This document shows positions 2 through 8,231 of a stretch of DNA of 48,095 nucleotides, in pieces. Both the position numbers and the translations under genes were made by a program. Source of the stretch: Desulfuromonas sp. (lineage in GTDB: Bacteria; Desulfobacterota; Desulfuromonadia; Desulfuromonadales; Desulfuromonadaceae); contig JAQUDG010000005.1 of the NCBI GenBank assembly GCA_028685815.1, forward strand, positions 1 through 48,095. The letters run 5' to 3'. Below the pieces are notes generated by a model. That model had not been told where the DNA came from, searched no databases, and saw only the letters and a program-made list of their open reading frames with translations. The stretch's first letter is position 1; the number at the start of each line of letters is the position of its first letter.

Positions 2-1042
2 ATGAAACGTCTAATAATTGCTCTACTTATAGCGGCATGCGCCCTGAGTGCATCCCTAGCCGCCGCATCCCCAGCGCTGGCAAATCAAAAACCCGGCGCC
101 GGAATCACGGTTAAACCCGGGCGCGCCACCTGGAACACCGGCTACATCCTCGAAGCCATCGTGCGCGAAGGACTCGTAGAATTGGGCTACACCGTAGCCC
201 CCGTAAAAGAACTAACCAACCCGCTGTTTTATCAATCCGTCTACCTCGGCGATCTCGACTACTGGGCCAATGGCTGGTTCCCGACCCATGACAACCAGCT
301 GCCACGCCGGTTTTATGAAGGTGCCGACAAATATGGACGCATCATGGAAGCTGGTGGCCTGCAAGGGTATCTCGTCTCCAAAGACGCGGTAGAAAAATAC
401 AACATACAATCGCTGGCCGACTTCAAGCGCCCCGAAGTAAGAAAAGCCTTTGATGAAGATGGTGACGGCAAAGCCGAATTGGTGGCGTGTCCTGCAGGGT
501 GGGGCTGTGAAAAAGCCATCGCGCACCATATGAAAGTTTACGAGCTCGAAGACCACATCAAGCCCATCAAGGCATCATATTCTGCCAGCATCGCCGATGC
601 CCTCGCCAAGCAACGTGCTGGGAAACCCGTAATCCTCTACACCTGGGCCCCCAACTGGGTTTTGTCTAAATTCAAGCCAGGTGAAAACGTGATGTGGATT
701 AACGTCCCCGAAATCAACCCTAACGAAGCCCAAAAAGGCTCCGAGGACCGCATGGTCGTTTCCGGCCTCAAAGGTGCAGTATCCGACCCGATCAAGCTCG
801 GCTTCATCGCGAGTGATATTCATGTAGTTGCGAATAAAAAATTCGCCGAAGCCAACCCCGCGGCCAAACGCTTTTTTGAACTCTTCACCATCCCACTGGC
901 CGATGTAAGCGCCCAAAACGACCGCATGAACGACGGCGAAAACTCCACCCAAGATATCCAGCGCCATGCGCAAGAGTGGGTAAAAGCTAACCAGCAACAG
1001 TGGAATGAGTGGATGGCAGCAGCCAGAGCTGCGGCGCAGTAG
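2..1042 (+). CDS. proX: Glycine betaine/proline ABC transporter substrate-binding protein ProX
   Basis: 346-residue periplasmic solute-binding protein of the ProX/OpuAC type. It should deliver glycine betaine or proline betaine to a ProVW importer for osmoprotection. The first ~27 residues are a Sec signal peptide (positive start, Ala/Leu core, cleavage near ASPALA-N). Trp residues that in ProX form the aromatic cage for the quaternary ammonium are visible in YWANGWFP, in the CPAGWGCEKA loop and in YTWAPNWVL. Length fits the family (~330). The ATG is at base 2, so the ribosome binding site and the expected proV/proW genes lie outside. A family B repeat begins 6 bases after the stop. Family assignment is firm; the exact ligand is inferred. 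Confidence 0.93.
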   Translation: MKRLIIALLIAACALSASLAAASPALANQKPGAGITVKPGRATWNTGYILEAIVREGLVELGYTVAPVKELTNPLFYQSVYLGDLDYWANGWFPTHDNQLPRRFYEGADKYGRIMEAGGLQGYLVSKDAVEKYNIQSLADFKRPEVRKAFDEDGDGKAELVACPAGWGCEKAIAHHMKVYELEDHIKPIKASYSASIADALAKQRAGKPVILYTWAPNWVLSKFKPGENVMWINVPEINPNEAQKGSEDRMVVSGLKGAVSDPIKLGFIASDIHVVANKKFAEANPAAKRFFELFTIPLADVSAQNDRMNDGENSTQDIQRHAQEWVKANQQQWNEWMAAARAAAQ

Positions 1043-3213: not shown

Positions 3214-5466
3214 ATGGCACTAACAATCAATACCAACGTCGCATCCCTCAACGCTCAACGTAACCTTGGCGCTTCCCAGGCGGATTTGAACAAATCCATG
3301 CAACGCCTCTCTTCCGGTCTGCGCATCAACTCTGCGAAGGACGACGCCGCCGGTCTGGCCATTTCCGACCGCATGACCTCGCAGATTCGTGGCCTGAACC
3401 AGGCCGTGCGTAACGCCAACGATGGTATCTCCCTGGCGCAGACCGCTGAAGGCGCCATGCAGGAGACCACCAACATTCTGCAGCGGATGCGCGAACTGGC
3501 CGTGCAATCGGCCAACGATACCAACAGCGCCACCGACCGTGCTTCCCTGCAGGCCGAAGTCAACCAGCTTAAGCAGGAAATTACCCGTATTGCTGAAACT
3601 ACCACCTTTAACGGCAAGAACCTGCTCGACGGCTCGCTGAGTTCCGCTCAGTTCCAGGTCGGTGCCAACGCCAATGAAACCATCAGTTTCGGGATCAGCT
3701 CGGCTAAAGCCTCCGATCTGGGCAGCAACACTCTCACTTCTGACAATGCTGCCGGTATTGAATCGGCTACGGCCGTTTATGCCATATCCTCAGCCGGTGG
3801 TGGTGCTGGTGTTGTTGGTACACCTGACGCATCTCCTACAACCAACGGAGTCATTGCTGAAACCCTGACCATCTCTTCTGCCAGTGGCACGGTGGGTACG
3901 GTTGCGATTAGCGCAGATGACAACCTTGGCGATACAGGGCTGGCGGTTGACGGCCTCAATGCCATTGCTGGTGTGACGGCAACGGGTTCGAATACGGTTG
4001 TGCTGAGTGGCCTGACAAGTAGTTACGAAGGCGATACTGGATCAGGCTACGGTGGTTCTCTTGTGCTGACGGATAGTGCGGCGACGGCTTCCATTGATCT
4101 GAGTGGTTATGTCGAGGCGGATGGTTCCATTACTGACGCTAACATGGCCGCTATTGCTGCAGAGATCGGCACAGACACCAGTAACGCATTTACGGCCAGC
4201 TATAACAGTGATACGGGAGAACTGACCGTTACCGCCGCATCCGCTAAGGACATCGATGTTTCCATAGCTGGCCTTGCAGCTGATGGTGCAAATAATACCA
4301 ACGCTTCGGTCGATGTGGCAGGGGCCAATTCCTCCAGTGCGACCAATATTGCATCGACAGCCGCTACGGTACAAGGCGTATCGGTTTCCGGCACGATCAC
4401 CGTGGCTCTGGACGAGGGCCTGAGCATGACTTCCACGGTGACTGGTGGCACGGGACTGTTCTCGGATGCGGCCGTGGATAACACCACCGGCGTCGTTTCC
4501 ACCGTGAAAACCGGTGTCGCCAATACTGACGATGGTAACAACGTCGGTGCTCAAACCCTGACCATCGTTGGTCCGAACGGTTCGGCACCGGATGTTGAAA
4601 TTGCCGCCGGTGCAACCGCCAACGCCGTTGCTACCGCCGTCAATGCTGAAACCGCCACCACCGGTGTTACCGCCGAAGCGCGCACCGTGGCCACCCTGTC
4701 AGATCTGTCGGCCAACGGTACGGTTTCGTTCACGTTGCAAGGCAACACCGAGGTTGACCCGGTCGAAATTCAGGCTACTGTGACCAAAGATGACCTGTCG
4801 GCGCTGGCCAAAGCCATCAACGATAATTCCGGCGCCACTGGCATCACTGCTCAGTTGTCGGGCAGTAATAACGAAATTATCCTGACCCAGGATAGCGGTT
4901 ATAACATCGCCATCGAGGATTTTGCCCACAGCGATACCGGCAGCCAATCAATGAACGTCGCCGGCAACCAGGGCGATGCCACTAAACTGATGGATGATGG
5001 CACCGGCACCTACGATTCAACGGTGGTGGGTGGTGAAGTCACCTTCTCTGCTTCGGACGATTTCAACATCACCAGCAGCATTGCCGAAGATGCAACCGGT
5101 GGTAACTCGTTGTTCGCTGCCGAAGCCGGTGAAGCTAACGTCAGTGATCTGAATTCAATTGCCGATGTTGACATTACTACTGTTGAAGGCTCCGCTGCCG
5201 CTATTAAGTCCATCGATGGCGCCCTGGCACAGATTGACACCTTCCGTGGCGATCTGGGTGCGGTACAAAACCGCTTCGAAAGCACCATTTCCAACTTGCA
5301 GAACGTTTCCGAAAACTTAAGCTCTGCCCGCAGTCGGATTCTCGATGCGGACATCGCCGAGGAGACCTCTAACATGACCAAGCAGAATATTTTGCAGCAG
5401 GCTGGGGTATCTATCCTCGCCCAGGCCAACCAGGCTCCACAGCTGGCCCTGAGCTTGCTCGGCTAA
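3214..5466 (+). CDS. fliC: Flagellin, with a very large variable domain
   Basis: 750 residues, the filament subunit exported by the flagellar type III system. Residues 1 to about 160 are the conserved D0/D1 helices ([44 protein letters not shown]). The last ~90 are the C-terminal D1/D0 partner ([18 protein letters not shown], ending LALSLLG). The ~500 residues between form a Thr/Ser/Ala/Gly-rich beta-type surface domain with at least two flagellin-IN-like blocks (near [18 protein letters not shown] and [18 protein letters not shown]). Standard flagellins have 280-500 residues. The start follows CATGGAGGAACATC. No signal peptide and no Cys, as expected. FlaG follows 110 bp downstream. The Ser/Thr-rich surface is a plausible O-glycosylation target (inference). 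Confidence 0.95.
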
Positions 5467-6012: not shown

Positions 6013-6508
6013 ACCCCCCTTTCCGCTGCGCTCCCTTCCCCCCTATAAAATAGGGGGGATTGAGGGGGGTCGGTTGTTTTCGCTATTACGCCGCAATACC
6101 GTCATTGCGGGCTTGACCCGCAATCTAGTTTAAACACCGGAGCCTCACTTTTGAGGGGATCCTGAATCGAGTTCAGGATGACGGCGCGGGGGGTTCAGGA
6201 TGACGGCGGAGGGGCACCCCCCTTTCCGCTGCGCTCCCTTCCCCCCTATTTTATAGGGGGGATTAAGGGGGGTCGGTTGTTTTCGTCATACCTACCCAAT
6301 ACCGTCATTGCGGGCTTGACCCGCAATCTGGTTCGAATAACACCGGAGCCTCACTTTTGAGGGGATCCTGAATCGAGTTCAGGATGACGGTGCGGGGGGG
6401 TTCAGGATGACGGTGCGGGGAGTTCAGGATGACGGCGGAGGGGCACCCCCCTTTCCGCTGCGCTCCCTTCCCCCCTATTTTATAGGGGGGATTAAGGGGG
6501 GTCAGCTT
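6013..6508. repeat. Family A compound hairpin repeats (two full units and a part)
   Basis: Each unit joins three hairpin modules in fixed order: (i) a CCCCCCTTTCCGCTGCGC arm and a CCCCCTATAAAATAGGGGG-type palindrome, with ATTTTAT in some copies; (ii) TTGCGGGCTTGACCCGCAA; (iii) ATCCTGAATCGAGTTCAGGAT, followed by a GACGGCGCGGGG motif. Units start near 6013, 6215 and 6444. The last has only module i and ends about 20 bases before the -35 of the Rpn promoter. No gene is present from 5928 to 6564 apart from the flaG terminator and these repeats. Confidence 0.85.
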
Positions 6509-6528
6509 CACCGAAAGTGCTTTCATCA

Positions 6529-6557
6529 TTGTCTGCCCCAACAGTGCGCGGTATAAT
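6529..6557 (+). promoter_or_regulatory. Sigma-70 promoter giving a probably leaderless rpn mRNA
   Basis: TTGTCT (6529-6534), exactly 17 bases, then a consensus TATAAT (6552-6557). Only 7 bases separate the -10 box from the ATG at 6565, so transcription should start at or next to the A of the start codon. There is no Shine-Dalgarno in those 7 bases. The core GCGGTATAATTAACGACATG is repeated ahead of each unit of the array. Confidence 0.6.
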
Positions 6558-6564
6558 TAACGAC

Positions 6565-7575
6565 ATGAGTGCTCAAATCCATAAGCCCCATGATACGTTC
6601 GTGCGCAAAGCGCTGGAAGATATGCGAGTTGTGCGCAGCCTGCTTCAGTGCGAGTTGCCGGAGCAAATCGCCGCTCAGCTGGATTTCACAACCACTGAGC
6701 GTATCGATGGCACCTATATCAGCAAGTCCATGCGCAACACCTATAGCGACATCGTGTTTCGAGTGCAGTTTAAGGATAAGAGCGACGACGAAAGCAGCGA
6801 CAAGAGCGACCACGCCTACATTTACACCCTGTTCGAGCATAAAAGTTACATGGATGACTGGTGTAACCTGCAACTATTAAAATATATGGTATCTCAGTGG
6901 GAGATTTTCCATACCGCCCATCCCAAAGAGAAACTACCGCCCATCATTCCGCTGGTGCTGTACCATGGCAAACGCGGCTGGCGTAGACGTGAAATGCTGG
7001 ATCTCATCAACACCAAAGATCCCGCGGCACTGCAACCGTACACCCCAACGTTTGACTACGTCCTTTGGGATGTAGCCCACATGGACAGAGAGCGGTTAGA
7101 CCTTACCCTAGAGGCCAGGGCGTTCCTAGAGATTCTGCACCACATAAAAAGAAGCTCGCTGGAACAAGCACTCCCACGCATCGCACACATGCTGGAAATG
7201 TCCTCAAATGACCGCCGCAGCATACTAGAAAAGATCGAAATGTATCTAAGATATGTCAGCAGCTGCAGTAAACACATAAATGAAGAAACCATCAGAAAAA
7301 GTATCGATGACAGTGAGATAAGGGAGGAAATTATGGCTACACTTGCACAGAAATGGATGAATGAGGGTGAAGCACGGGGCAAAGCTATAGGCGAAGCACG
7401 GGGGATAATAGGCGGCCAGTCCGCATTGCTGCGCAAACTGATCAAACTACGTTTCGGGCAGATTCCACCCTATGTAGAGGGCCAACTCGCCGCCGCAACA
7501 GCTGAGCAGCTTGAGCGCTTTGCCGAGAATGTGCTGACCGCTACTACCGCCGAAGAAGTTGTGACACTGAACTAG
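6565..7575 (+). CDS. Rpn family recombination-promoting nuclease, full length, with DUF4351-like C-terminus
   Basis: 336 residues. The N-terminal ~210 match the Rpn/PD-(D/E)XK 'putative transposase' family: HKPHDTFVRKALEDM, LPEQIAAQLDF, the catalytic set D62 (YSDIVFRV), E91 and K93 (LFEHKSYMDD), and IPLVLYHGKRGW. The C-terminal ~60 (LLRKLIKLRFGQIP then QLERFAENVLTATTAEEV) resemble DUF4351. The start at 6565 is shared with the neighbouring copy; the frame is open upstream to 6517 only through repeat-adjacent sequence. Rpn proteins are DNA endonucleases, and several are toxic or antiphage and are held back by a C-terminal fragment made from an internal start. Here a good internal start exists (7333). 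Family A repeats flank the array on both sides. Confidence 0.88.
   Translation: MSAQIHKPHDTFVRKALEDMRVVRSLLQCELPEQIAAQLDFTTTERIDGTYISKSMRNTYSDIVFRVQFKDKSDDESSDKSDHAYIYTLFEHKSYMDDWCNLQLLKYMVSQWEIFHTAHPKEKLPPIIPLVLYHGKRGWRRREMLDLINTKDPAALQPYTPTFDYVLWDVAHMDRERLDLTLEARAFLEILHHIKRSSLEQALPRIAHMLEMSSNDRRSILEKIEMYLRYVSSCSKHINEETIRKSIDDSEIREEIMATLAQKWMNEGEARGKAIGEARGIIGGQSALLRKLIKLRFGQIPPYVEGQLAAATAEQLERFAENVLTATTAEEVVTLN
7333..7575 (+). CDS. Candidate intragenic small Rpn product (RpnS-like antitoxin)
   Basis: In frame inside the full-length rpn gene, ATG at 7333 (residue 257) is preceded by AGGGAGG at 7321-7327 with a 5-base spacer, far better than anything before the main start. It would give an 80-residue protein beginning MATLAQKWMNEGEARG and covering the DUF4351-like domain. 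Intragenic C-terminal proteins that neutralise the full-length nuclease have been described for enterobacterial Rpn genes. The site is seen directly; the function is inferred by analogy. Confidence 0.5.
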   Translation: MATLAQKWMNEGEARGKAIGEARGIIGGQSALLRKLIKLRFGQIPPYVEGQLAAATAEQLERFAENVLTATTAEEVVTLN

Positions 7576-7596: not shown

Positions 7597-7602
7597 TATA
7601 AT
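7597..7602 (+). promoter_or_regulatory. -10 box of the second rpn copy
   Basis: TATAAT, 8 bases before the ATG at 7611, in a duplicate of the first promoter core. One extra A widens the gap, and no good -35 lies at 16-18 bases, so this copy may be transcribed mainly by readthrough. Confidence 0.4.
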
Positions 7603-7610
7603 TAAACGAC

Positions 7611-8072
7611 ATGAGTGCTCAAATCCATAAACCCCATGATACGTTCGTGCGCAAAGCGCTGGAAGATATGCGAGTTGTGCGCAGCCTGCTTCAGTGCGAG
7701 TTGCCGGAGCAAATCGCCGCTCCCTCAAATGACCGCCGCAGCATACTAGAAAAGATCGAAATGTATCTAAGATATGTCAGCGGCTGCAGTAAACACATAA
7801 ATGAAGAAACCATCAGAAAAAGTATCGAAGACAGTGAGATAAGGGAGGAAATTATGGCTACACTTGCACAGAAGTGGATGAATGAGGGTGAAGCACGGGG
7901 GATAATAGGCGGCCAGTCCGCATTGCTGCGCAAACTGATCAAACTGCGTTTCGGGCAGATTCCACCCTATGTAGAGGGCCAACTCGCCGCCGCAACAGCT
8001 GAGCAGCTTGAGCGCTTTGCCGAGAATGTGCTGACCGCTACTACAGCCGAAGAAGTTGTGACACTAAACTAG
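7611..8072 (+). CDS. Internally deleted Rpn copy lacking the nuclease core
   Basis: 153 residues. The first 37 are identical to the full-length neighbour, then the sequence jumps to the equivalent of residue 214 (AAPSNDRRS). The missing 525 bp corresponds to 6677-7201, exactly 175 codons, so the frame is kept. A second in-frame loss removes 8 residues (one of two GEARG repeats). The PD-(D/E)XK residues D62, E91 and K93 are gone, so it cannot cut DNA; the helical middle part and DUF4351-like end are intact. It could be decay, or a free-standing inhibitor of the neighbouring nuclease. The high identity to copy 1 shows a recent duplication. Confidence 0.75.
   Translation: MSAQIHKPHDTFVRKALEDMRVVRSLLQCELPEQIAAPSNDRRSILEKIEMYLRYVSGCSKHINEETIRKSIEDSEIREEIMATLAQKWMNEGEARGIIGGQSALLRKLIKLRFGQIPPYVEGQLAAATAEQLERFAENVLTATTAEEVVTLN
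7854..8072 (+). CDS. Candidate intragenic small product in the second rpn copy
   Basis: The same AGGGAGG and ATG arrangement as in the full-length gene (ATG at 7854), giving 72 residues with the same DUF4351-like end. The site survived the deletions unchanged, including its spacing. Confidence 0.4.
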   Translation: MATLAQKWMNEGEARGIIGGQSALLRKLIKLRFGQIPPYVEGQLAAATAEQLERFAENVLTATTAEEVVTLN

Positions 8073-8090
8073 CATTCATAGTTATTTGCG

Positions 8091-8112
8091 CGGTATAATT
8101 AACGACATGAGT
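8091..8112 (+). pseudogene. Remnant of a third rpn unit (promoter and start codon only)
   Basis: CGGTATAATTAACGACATGA reproduces the promoter/start core of the rpn units. After ATGAGTG the sequence passes directly into a family A repeat. The 34 bases before the ATG match the spacer before copy 2 with a few changes, so this is the end of a tandem array, cut by or joined to the repeat. Confidence 0.7.
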
Positions 8113-8231
8113 GACCCCCCTTTCCGCTGCGCTCCCTTCCTCCCTATAAAATAAGGGGGATTGAGGGGGGGGCGGTTATTTGTGTCATTACGACGCAATA
8201 CCGTCATTGCGGGCTTGACCCGCAATCTAGA
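8113..8231. repeat. Family A repeat after the rpn array
   Basis: Module i (CCCCCCTTTCCGCTGCGC with a slightly decayed TATAAAATA palindrome) and module ii (TTGCGGGCTTGACCCGCAA) in the same orientation as the units at 6013-6508. The rpn array is thus bracketed by direct copies. Module iii is absent. Confidence 0.8.

Follow-up and report, generated by a model that had tools for sequence, protein, structure and literature searches.

How might a single gene that encodes both a nuclease toxin and, within the same reading frame, the inhibitor of that toxin hold the two products in balance? The question is raised by an open reading frame at positions 6565 to 7575 (forward strand, as are all features of its array given below) of the window, the whole stretch of 48,095 nucleotides of Desulfuromonas sp. 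DNA that was analysed here and that is carried on contig C24 of a 2.6 Mb assembly of 166 contigs. The rpn genes of E. coli are already known to encode intragenic antitoxins, to vary in their repeats, to form tandem arrays and to be accompanied by separate rpnS copies downstream (Zhong et al. 2023, PMC10327210), and the first-pass annotation had stated that small proteins from internal starts block the enterobacterial Rpn nuclease. Zhong et al. left open how the full-length toxin, RpnL, is released from the short antitoxin, RpnS, and a difference in the mode of initiation on one message would offer a concrete and testable answer. Our evidence is drawn from sequence; Desulfobacterota are well sampled in it, and other phyla are represented by a small sample.

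The rpnL gene and its protein

By its sequence features the reading frame at 6565..7575 is a member of the Rpn family. Its 336-residue product, the predicted toxin, matches PF04754 (Transposase_31, PD-(D/E)XK) at 137 bits against a curated cut-off of 21 (E=8e-40), and a profile match places DUF4351 at residues 283-332. The catalytic residues are intact: D10, D62, E91 and K93 are, in the alignment to homologs, the equivalents of D11, D63, E82 and Q84 of RpnA, which are required in E. coli (PMC5350276). Lysine occupies the Q84-equivalent site in 61 aligned homologs and glutamine in 27. Because K93 sits where the RpnA-Q84K mutant was inactive (PMC5350276), the nuclease activity of the rpnL product is not certain. 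Comparison with an intact paralog on contig C153 gives a dN/dS of 0.18, and the nuclease has therefore been under purifying selection.

An alternative GTG start at 6517 was rejected, since translation from it would run through the promoter described below, and homolog starts align with 6565. An AlphaFold2 model of the protein is poor (pLDDT 55) and displays a possible long helix from residue 257. A search of solved structures with the rpnL protein sequence gave no match, and a PADLOC search gave none for the rpn locus.

The internal start and the predicted antitoxin RpnS

As the first-pass annotation had pointed out, an in-frame ATG at 7333 is preceded at a distance of 5 bases (AAATT) by the Shine-Dalgarno sequence AGGGAGG (7321..7327), and opens an 80-residue, C-terminal, DUF4351-type product (7333..7575, with the coding part at 7333-7572). 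No stable RNA structure lies over the Shine-Dalgarno, and we saw no unusual RNA folding that would mask either this start or the long one. Four 4-residue units, GEAR GKAI GEAR GIIG (7366..7413), make up part of the first helix of this predicted antitoxin, RpnS. The proven internal start of E. coli rpnA, where the internal-start mutations lie at K240, E241 and M244 (PMC10327210), aligns to the same site as ATG 7333, and because E. coli has a proven start at that site, the intragenic antitoxin predicted here is of a known kind. The likeness to E. coli RpnA-E (Zhong et al. 2023, PMC10327210) takes in the PF04754 nuclease with an internal Shine-Dalgarno and ATG at the same place, the DUF4351-type C-terminus with its 4-residue repeats, the tandem arrays and the separate downstream rpnS copies. 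The window gene carries the sequence features that define an RpnL/RpnS intragenic toxin-antitoxin.

The internal signal is widely shared. We searched 96 non-redundant rpn homologs that cover the region for an in-frame ATG with a Shine-Dalgarno of at least 5 nt, and 70 of them have both at the homologous site (77 if GTG and TTG are counted); elsewhere in these genes the signal appears in 1.6% of windows. The same letters encode a peptide, (K/R)-E-E-(I/L)-M, conserved in the closest homologs, and one could suppose that the Shine-Dalgarno-like stretch is an unused by-product of that peptide; indeed, versions recoded synonymously with each gene's own codons still yield the signal in a mean of 36 of 96 genes. 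Yet the maximum over 200 such trials was 46, well short of the 70 observed, and the Shine-Dalgarno core sits in one of two registers relative to the codons, in 35 and in 33 cases, and is written by different peptides (KGGEIM, REEIM, LEEVxxM). The two registers and the recoding shortfall argue that the nucleotide signal has been selected, and not the peptide alone. Since both E. coli and C. difficile have moreover been shown to use the internal start (PMC10327210), we find the coding by-product extremely improbable. As for an internal promoter for rpnS, upstream sites score 5.3 against 4.7 in other coding windows, and the best site in the window gene itself scores 2.4; since the scores barely exceed those of other coding windows, a conserved internal promoter was rejected and none is claimed.

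A leaderless-type long start

Upstream of ATG 6565, the best promoter match of the region is a sigma70-type TTGTCT-17-TATAAT, with the -35 element at 6529..6534 and the -10 element at 6552..6557, which jointly match 10 of 12 consensus bases. The -10 element ends 7 bases (TAACGAC) before the ATG, the predicted +1 falls on the A of that ATG or on the adjacent base, and the 20 bases 5' of the ATG hold no Shine-Dalgarno-like run, all of which bears out the earlier description of a start codon only 7 bases from a TATAAT and without a Shine-Dalgarno. By sequence, the long start of rpnL fits a leaderless gene, in that the promoter places +1 on the start codon and a Shine-Dalgarno is absent. The arrangement is conserved in position. 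Other copies in this genome show a TTGnnn separated by 17 bases from a TAnnnT that lies 6-7 bases ahead of the ATG, and so does a homolog from another genus; between that homolog, which is 55% identical, and the copies of this genome the spacer sequence is otherwise unrelated. The exceptions in this genome are the second tandem copy, which has the -10 only, and a relic on contig C44, which is degraded.

How general is this geometry? Start codons for the survey were picked from the protein alignment, blind to the upstream sequence. Promoters were scored with an E. coli sigma70 model built on approximate frequencies, and a pattern-only test (TTG-16..18-TAnnnT, 5-8 bases before the ATG) is independent of that model. 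Among 82 non-redundant rpn genes of Desulfobacterota, 48 have a best sigma70 match whose end lies 5-8 bases, most commonly 6, ahead of the ATG, against a mean of 7.4 and a maximum of 18 in 100 dinucleotide shuffles. A promoter score of at least 6 at this distance is found in 40/82 rpn genes vs 4/179 flanking genes (Fisher p ~1e-19), and the pattern-only test finds 34/82 vs 1/179, a control count that stays at 1/179 when any in-frame ATG in the controls' first 40 codons is allowed. When the 30 genes with a distance of 6 are lined up by their start codons, the -35 hexamer occupies -35 to -30 and the -10 occupies -12 to -7, with +1 being the first base of the ATG. A pyrimidine stands at -1 in 39 of the 40 leaderless-type rpn genes, as opposed to about half of the controls, and all 40 start with ATG; long starts at TTG or GTG are confined to the remaining rpn genes. 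The abutting promoter, the -1 pyrimidine and the uniform ATG are the marks that would be expected of transcription beginning at the start codon.

Loci L001-L086 gave rise to the hypothesis, and the genes fetched later, which serve as a replication sample, show the leaderless geometry more strongly (31/45). The trait is spread over 13 taxonomic families and scattered on the rpn tree, with at least 13 state changes on a quick tree, 9 of them forced by well-supported branches. Control families from the same order are leaderless-like in 3/26 cases for Y1 transposases, of which 11/26 have a clear Shine-Dalgarno, and in 1/7 for PDDEXK_2 nucleases. Outside the phylum the sample is small, 15 rpn genes with those of E. 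coli included, and the leaderless test at a score of at least 6 picked out none of them. The E. coli genes rpnA, rpnB and rpnE have a Shine-Dalgarno at the long start, unlike the window gene, which is by prediction leaderless there.

An internal Shine-Dalgarno start is present in 32 of the 36 leaderless rpn genes that include the C-terminal region. To judge from these signals, the pairing of a presumably weak leaderless toxin start with a strong led antitoxin start is a conserved feature of Desulfobacterota rpn genes and, being conserved, one that has been selected. The core of the first-pass interpretation thus stands: the long start of this Rpn gene is of leaderless type, and a strong Shine-Dalgarno leads an internal start, which lies at the site used in E. 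coli rpnA. The pairing is also conserved. What it overlooked is that the gene has company, a second tandem copy (7611-8072) and a stub (8087-8113).

The tandem array and other copies in the genome

The second copy (7611..8072, 153 residues) begins after a gap of 35 bases, is 97-99% identical to copy 1 in DNA and has lost the nuclease core (residues 39-213) in frame. Its -10 element TATAAT (7597..7602) lies 8 bases before its ATG, and the matching -35 is not retained. The internal signal is kept, with AGGGAGG at 7842..7848 and Shine-Dalgarno plus ATG spanning 7842-7856, and leads a second predicted rpnS of 72 residues (7854..8072) that is two repeats shorter than the first and otherwise free of amino-acid substitutions; its 72 codons differ from those of copy 1 by 5 synonymous changes and by no amino-acid change. 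The third unit is reduced to a stub holding a -10, an ATG and the first codons (8087..8113), identical at 27/27 positions to 6545-6571. At the array junction, then, the -10 and the ATG travel with the gene.

A first scan of the genome's contigs with a single protein found no copies elsewhere; three were found later, an intact one on contig C153, one on C163 that is broken off after ~95 residues, and the relic on C44. The 4-residue units (GEAR, GKAI, GIIG) number four in copy 1, three in the C153 copy and two in copy 2. In E. coli the repeats set RpnL-RpnS specificity, and one extra 4-residue unit in RpnC abolished cross-inhibition (PMC10327210). Because repeat numbers differ among the copies here, and in light of the RpnC result, we predict that the rpn copies of this genome may form separate specificities.

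Several features around these copies deserve mention. The C163 copy (locus L016, ~3520-3636) retains its leaderless promoter and its initial ~95 codons; beyond them lies unrelated sequence with a Shine-Dalgarno-led ORF (MRKKRKNYTAKEKVF) that resembles an inserted transposase gene. A GC-rich repeat (core CCCCCCTATTTTATAGGGGGG) flanks the array on both sides, at window positions 6200-6274, 6429-6503 and 8098-8172; similar stretches in other parts of the window are called as spurious ORFs, and the element is perhaps a small repeat that is mobile in this genome. In a homolog from a neighbouring genus (locus L018, contig C42 of genome G004, 1115-2197), the RpnS helix carries a long run of 4-residue repeats of the GREEGRQEG type, beyond that of the window copies.

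Discussion

We consider it likely that the window, from a member of the Desulfobacterota (Thermodesulfobacteriota), holds an RpnL/RpnS gene in which a leaderless toxin start is paired with a Shine-Dalgarno-led intragenic antitoxin, and that this pairing is conserved in the phylum. From what is observed, namely both initiation signals, their conservation at the nucleotide level, the intact catalytic residues and the purifying selection, we infer a transcript start at the toxin codon, synthesis of both products, inhibition of one by the other and an excess of RpnS. One promoter would give rise to an mRNA that starts at or within one base of the toxin AUG, and RpnL would be translated from it in the leaderless manner, a mode that in E. 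coli employs intact 70S ribosomes and has low efficiency (PMC8485053). The strong internal Shine-Dalgarno and AUG would drive separate synthesis of RpnS from the same message, and RpnS would pair with the same C-terminal domain of RpnL and block the nuclease, as has been shown for RpnA (PMC10327210). The unequal initiation would probably keep RpnS in excess, such that the gene encodes its own antitoxin surplus. At the same time, an antitoxin excess needs no leaderless toxin, because the long starts of rpnA, rpnB and rpnE in E. coli have a Shine-Dalgarno and an internal transcript also supplies RpnS there (PMC10327210).

What else might the leaderless start provide? Consider, for example, a cell in which ribosomes are damaged, stress sets in or a phage takes over. 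If the toxin were made solely by the leaderless 70S route and the inhibitor solely by the Shine-Dalgarno route, any such event could shift the ratio of the two and arm the nuclease without a dedicated sensor. Leaderless mRNAs are favoured by stress, kasugamycin and MazF (PMC3898074, PMC8485053), and since it fits this known behaviour, a release of RpnL through ribosome choice is plausible; we offer it as a tentative proposal, still on the doubtful side.

A simpler account of the leaderless start is that it is a by-product of mobility, with low translation incidental. A 35-bp promoter that abuts the ATG would make rpn self-contained, and the gene would therefore work wherever it is duplicated or transferred. 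Rpn genes are indeed mobile and form tandem arrays (PMC10327210), the -10 and ATG are carried along at the array junction, and copies are dispersed in this genome and others. However, the mobile Y1 transposases of the same genomes are mostly built otherwise (3/26 leaderless-like, 11/26 with a clear Shine-Dalgarno), and Shine-Dalgarno-led rpn genes are just as mobile. The transposases thus argue against portability as the full reason, and we rate this account as possible and somewhat unlikely.

The other alternatives concern what the gene and its short product are for. Cas11d assembles with Cas10d as a structural partner, and the internal product of rpn could likewise assemble with the full-length protein and not act as an antitoxin. 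RpnA makes an L2S2 tetramer (PMC10327210), as such a partner would; yet E. coli RpnS stops RpnL cleavage, toxicity and SOS induction, and the domain, its position and the 4-residue repeats are alike here, which leaves the structural role unlikely. The core-deleted copy 2 without a -35, the stub at 8087-8113, the apparently interrupted copy on C163 and the relic on C44 might instead suggest that rpn is being lost and that its expression signals are relics of a decaying array. Against this, copy 1 is intact, with its catalytic residues and a dN/dS of 0.18, and the second RpnS has changed at synonymous positions only, so that decay is very unlikely to account for the signals. We thus return to the paired leaderless toxin and led antitoxin as our preferred reading.

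Parts of this arrangement have precedents. In Mycobacterium tuberculosis, toxin-antitoxin operons give preferentially leaderless transcripts, as predicted for the toxin start here, and the leaderless share rises in growth arrest (PMC3898074, PMC8485053). Those are two-gene operons in an organism where roughly one gene in four is leaderless, whereas here one gene would combine opposite start types, in a geometry that is rare in the genomes. A single gene also yields two proteins in the case of Shigella virF (PMC5101355), where a leaderless mRNA serves for one of them; but there it makes the short form of a regulator, whereas here the long toxin would come from the leaderless start and the short form from the led one. 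In the open-licence literature we found no description of a leaderless rpn gene, and the word "leaderless" is absent from PMC10327210 and PMC5350276. A single gene with a leaderless toxin and a Shine-Dalgarno-led antitoxin, as predicted here, appears to be new.

If true, this would be a clear example of selection maintaining a leaderless start in bacteria where such starts are rare. The rpn genes also provide a large comparative set for leaderless initiation, and the promoter motif and the internal Shine-Dalgarno can be used to reannotate rpn start sites and to find more intragenic antitoxins.

Other genes and genomes

Elsewhere in the window, a ParE-type toxin gene (PF05016, 2255-2551) lies with an overlapping upstream ORF, probably its antitoxin, on the forward strand (1902-2554), and a DUF559 (PF04480) endonuclease-like ORF lies on the reverse strand (1270-1656). 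Some Desulfobacterota genomes hold more than 12 rpn genes or fragments, with 23 matches in each of two genomes (G693 and G705) and 13 in a third (G400), many with the leaderless promoter.
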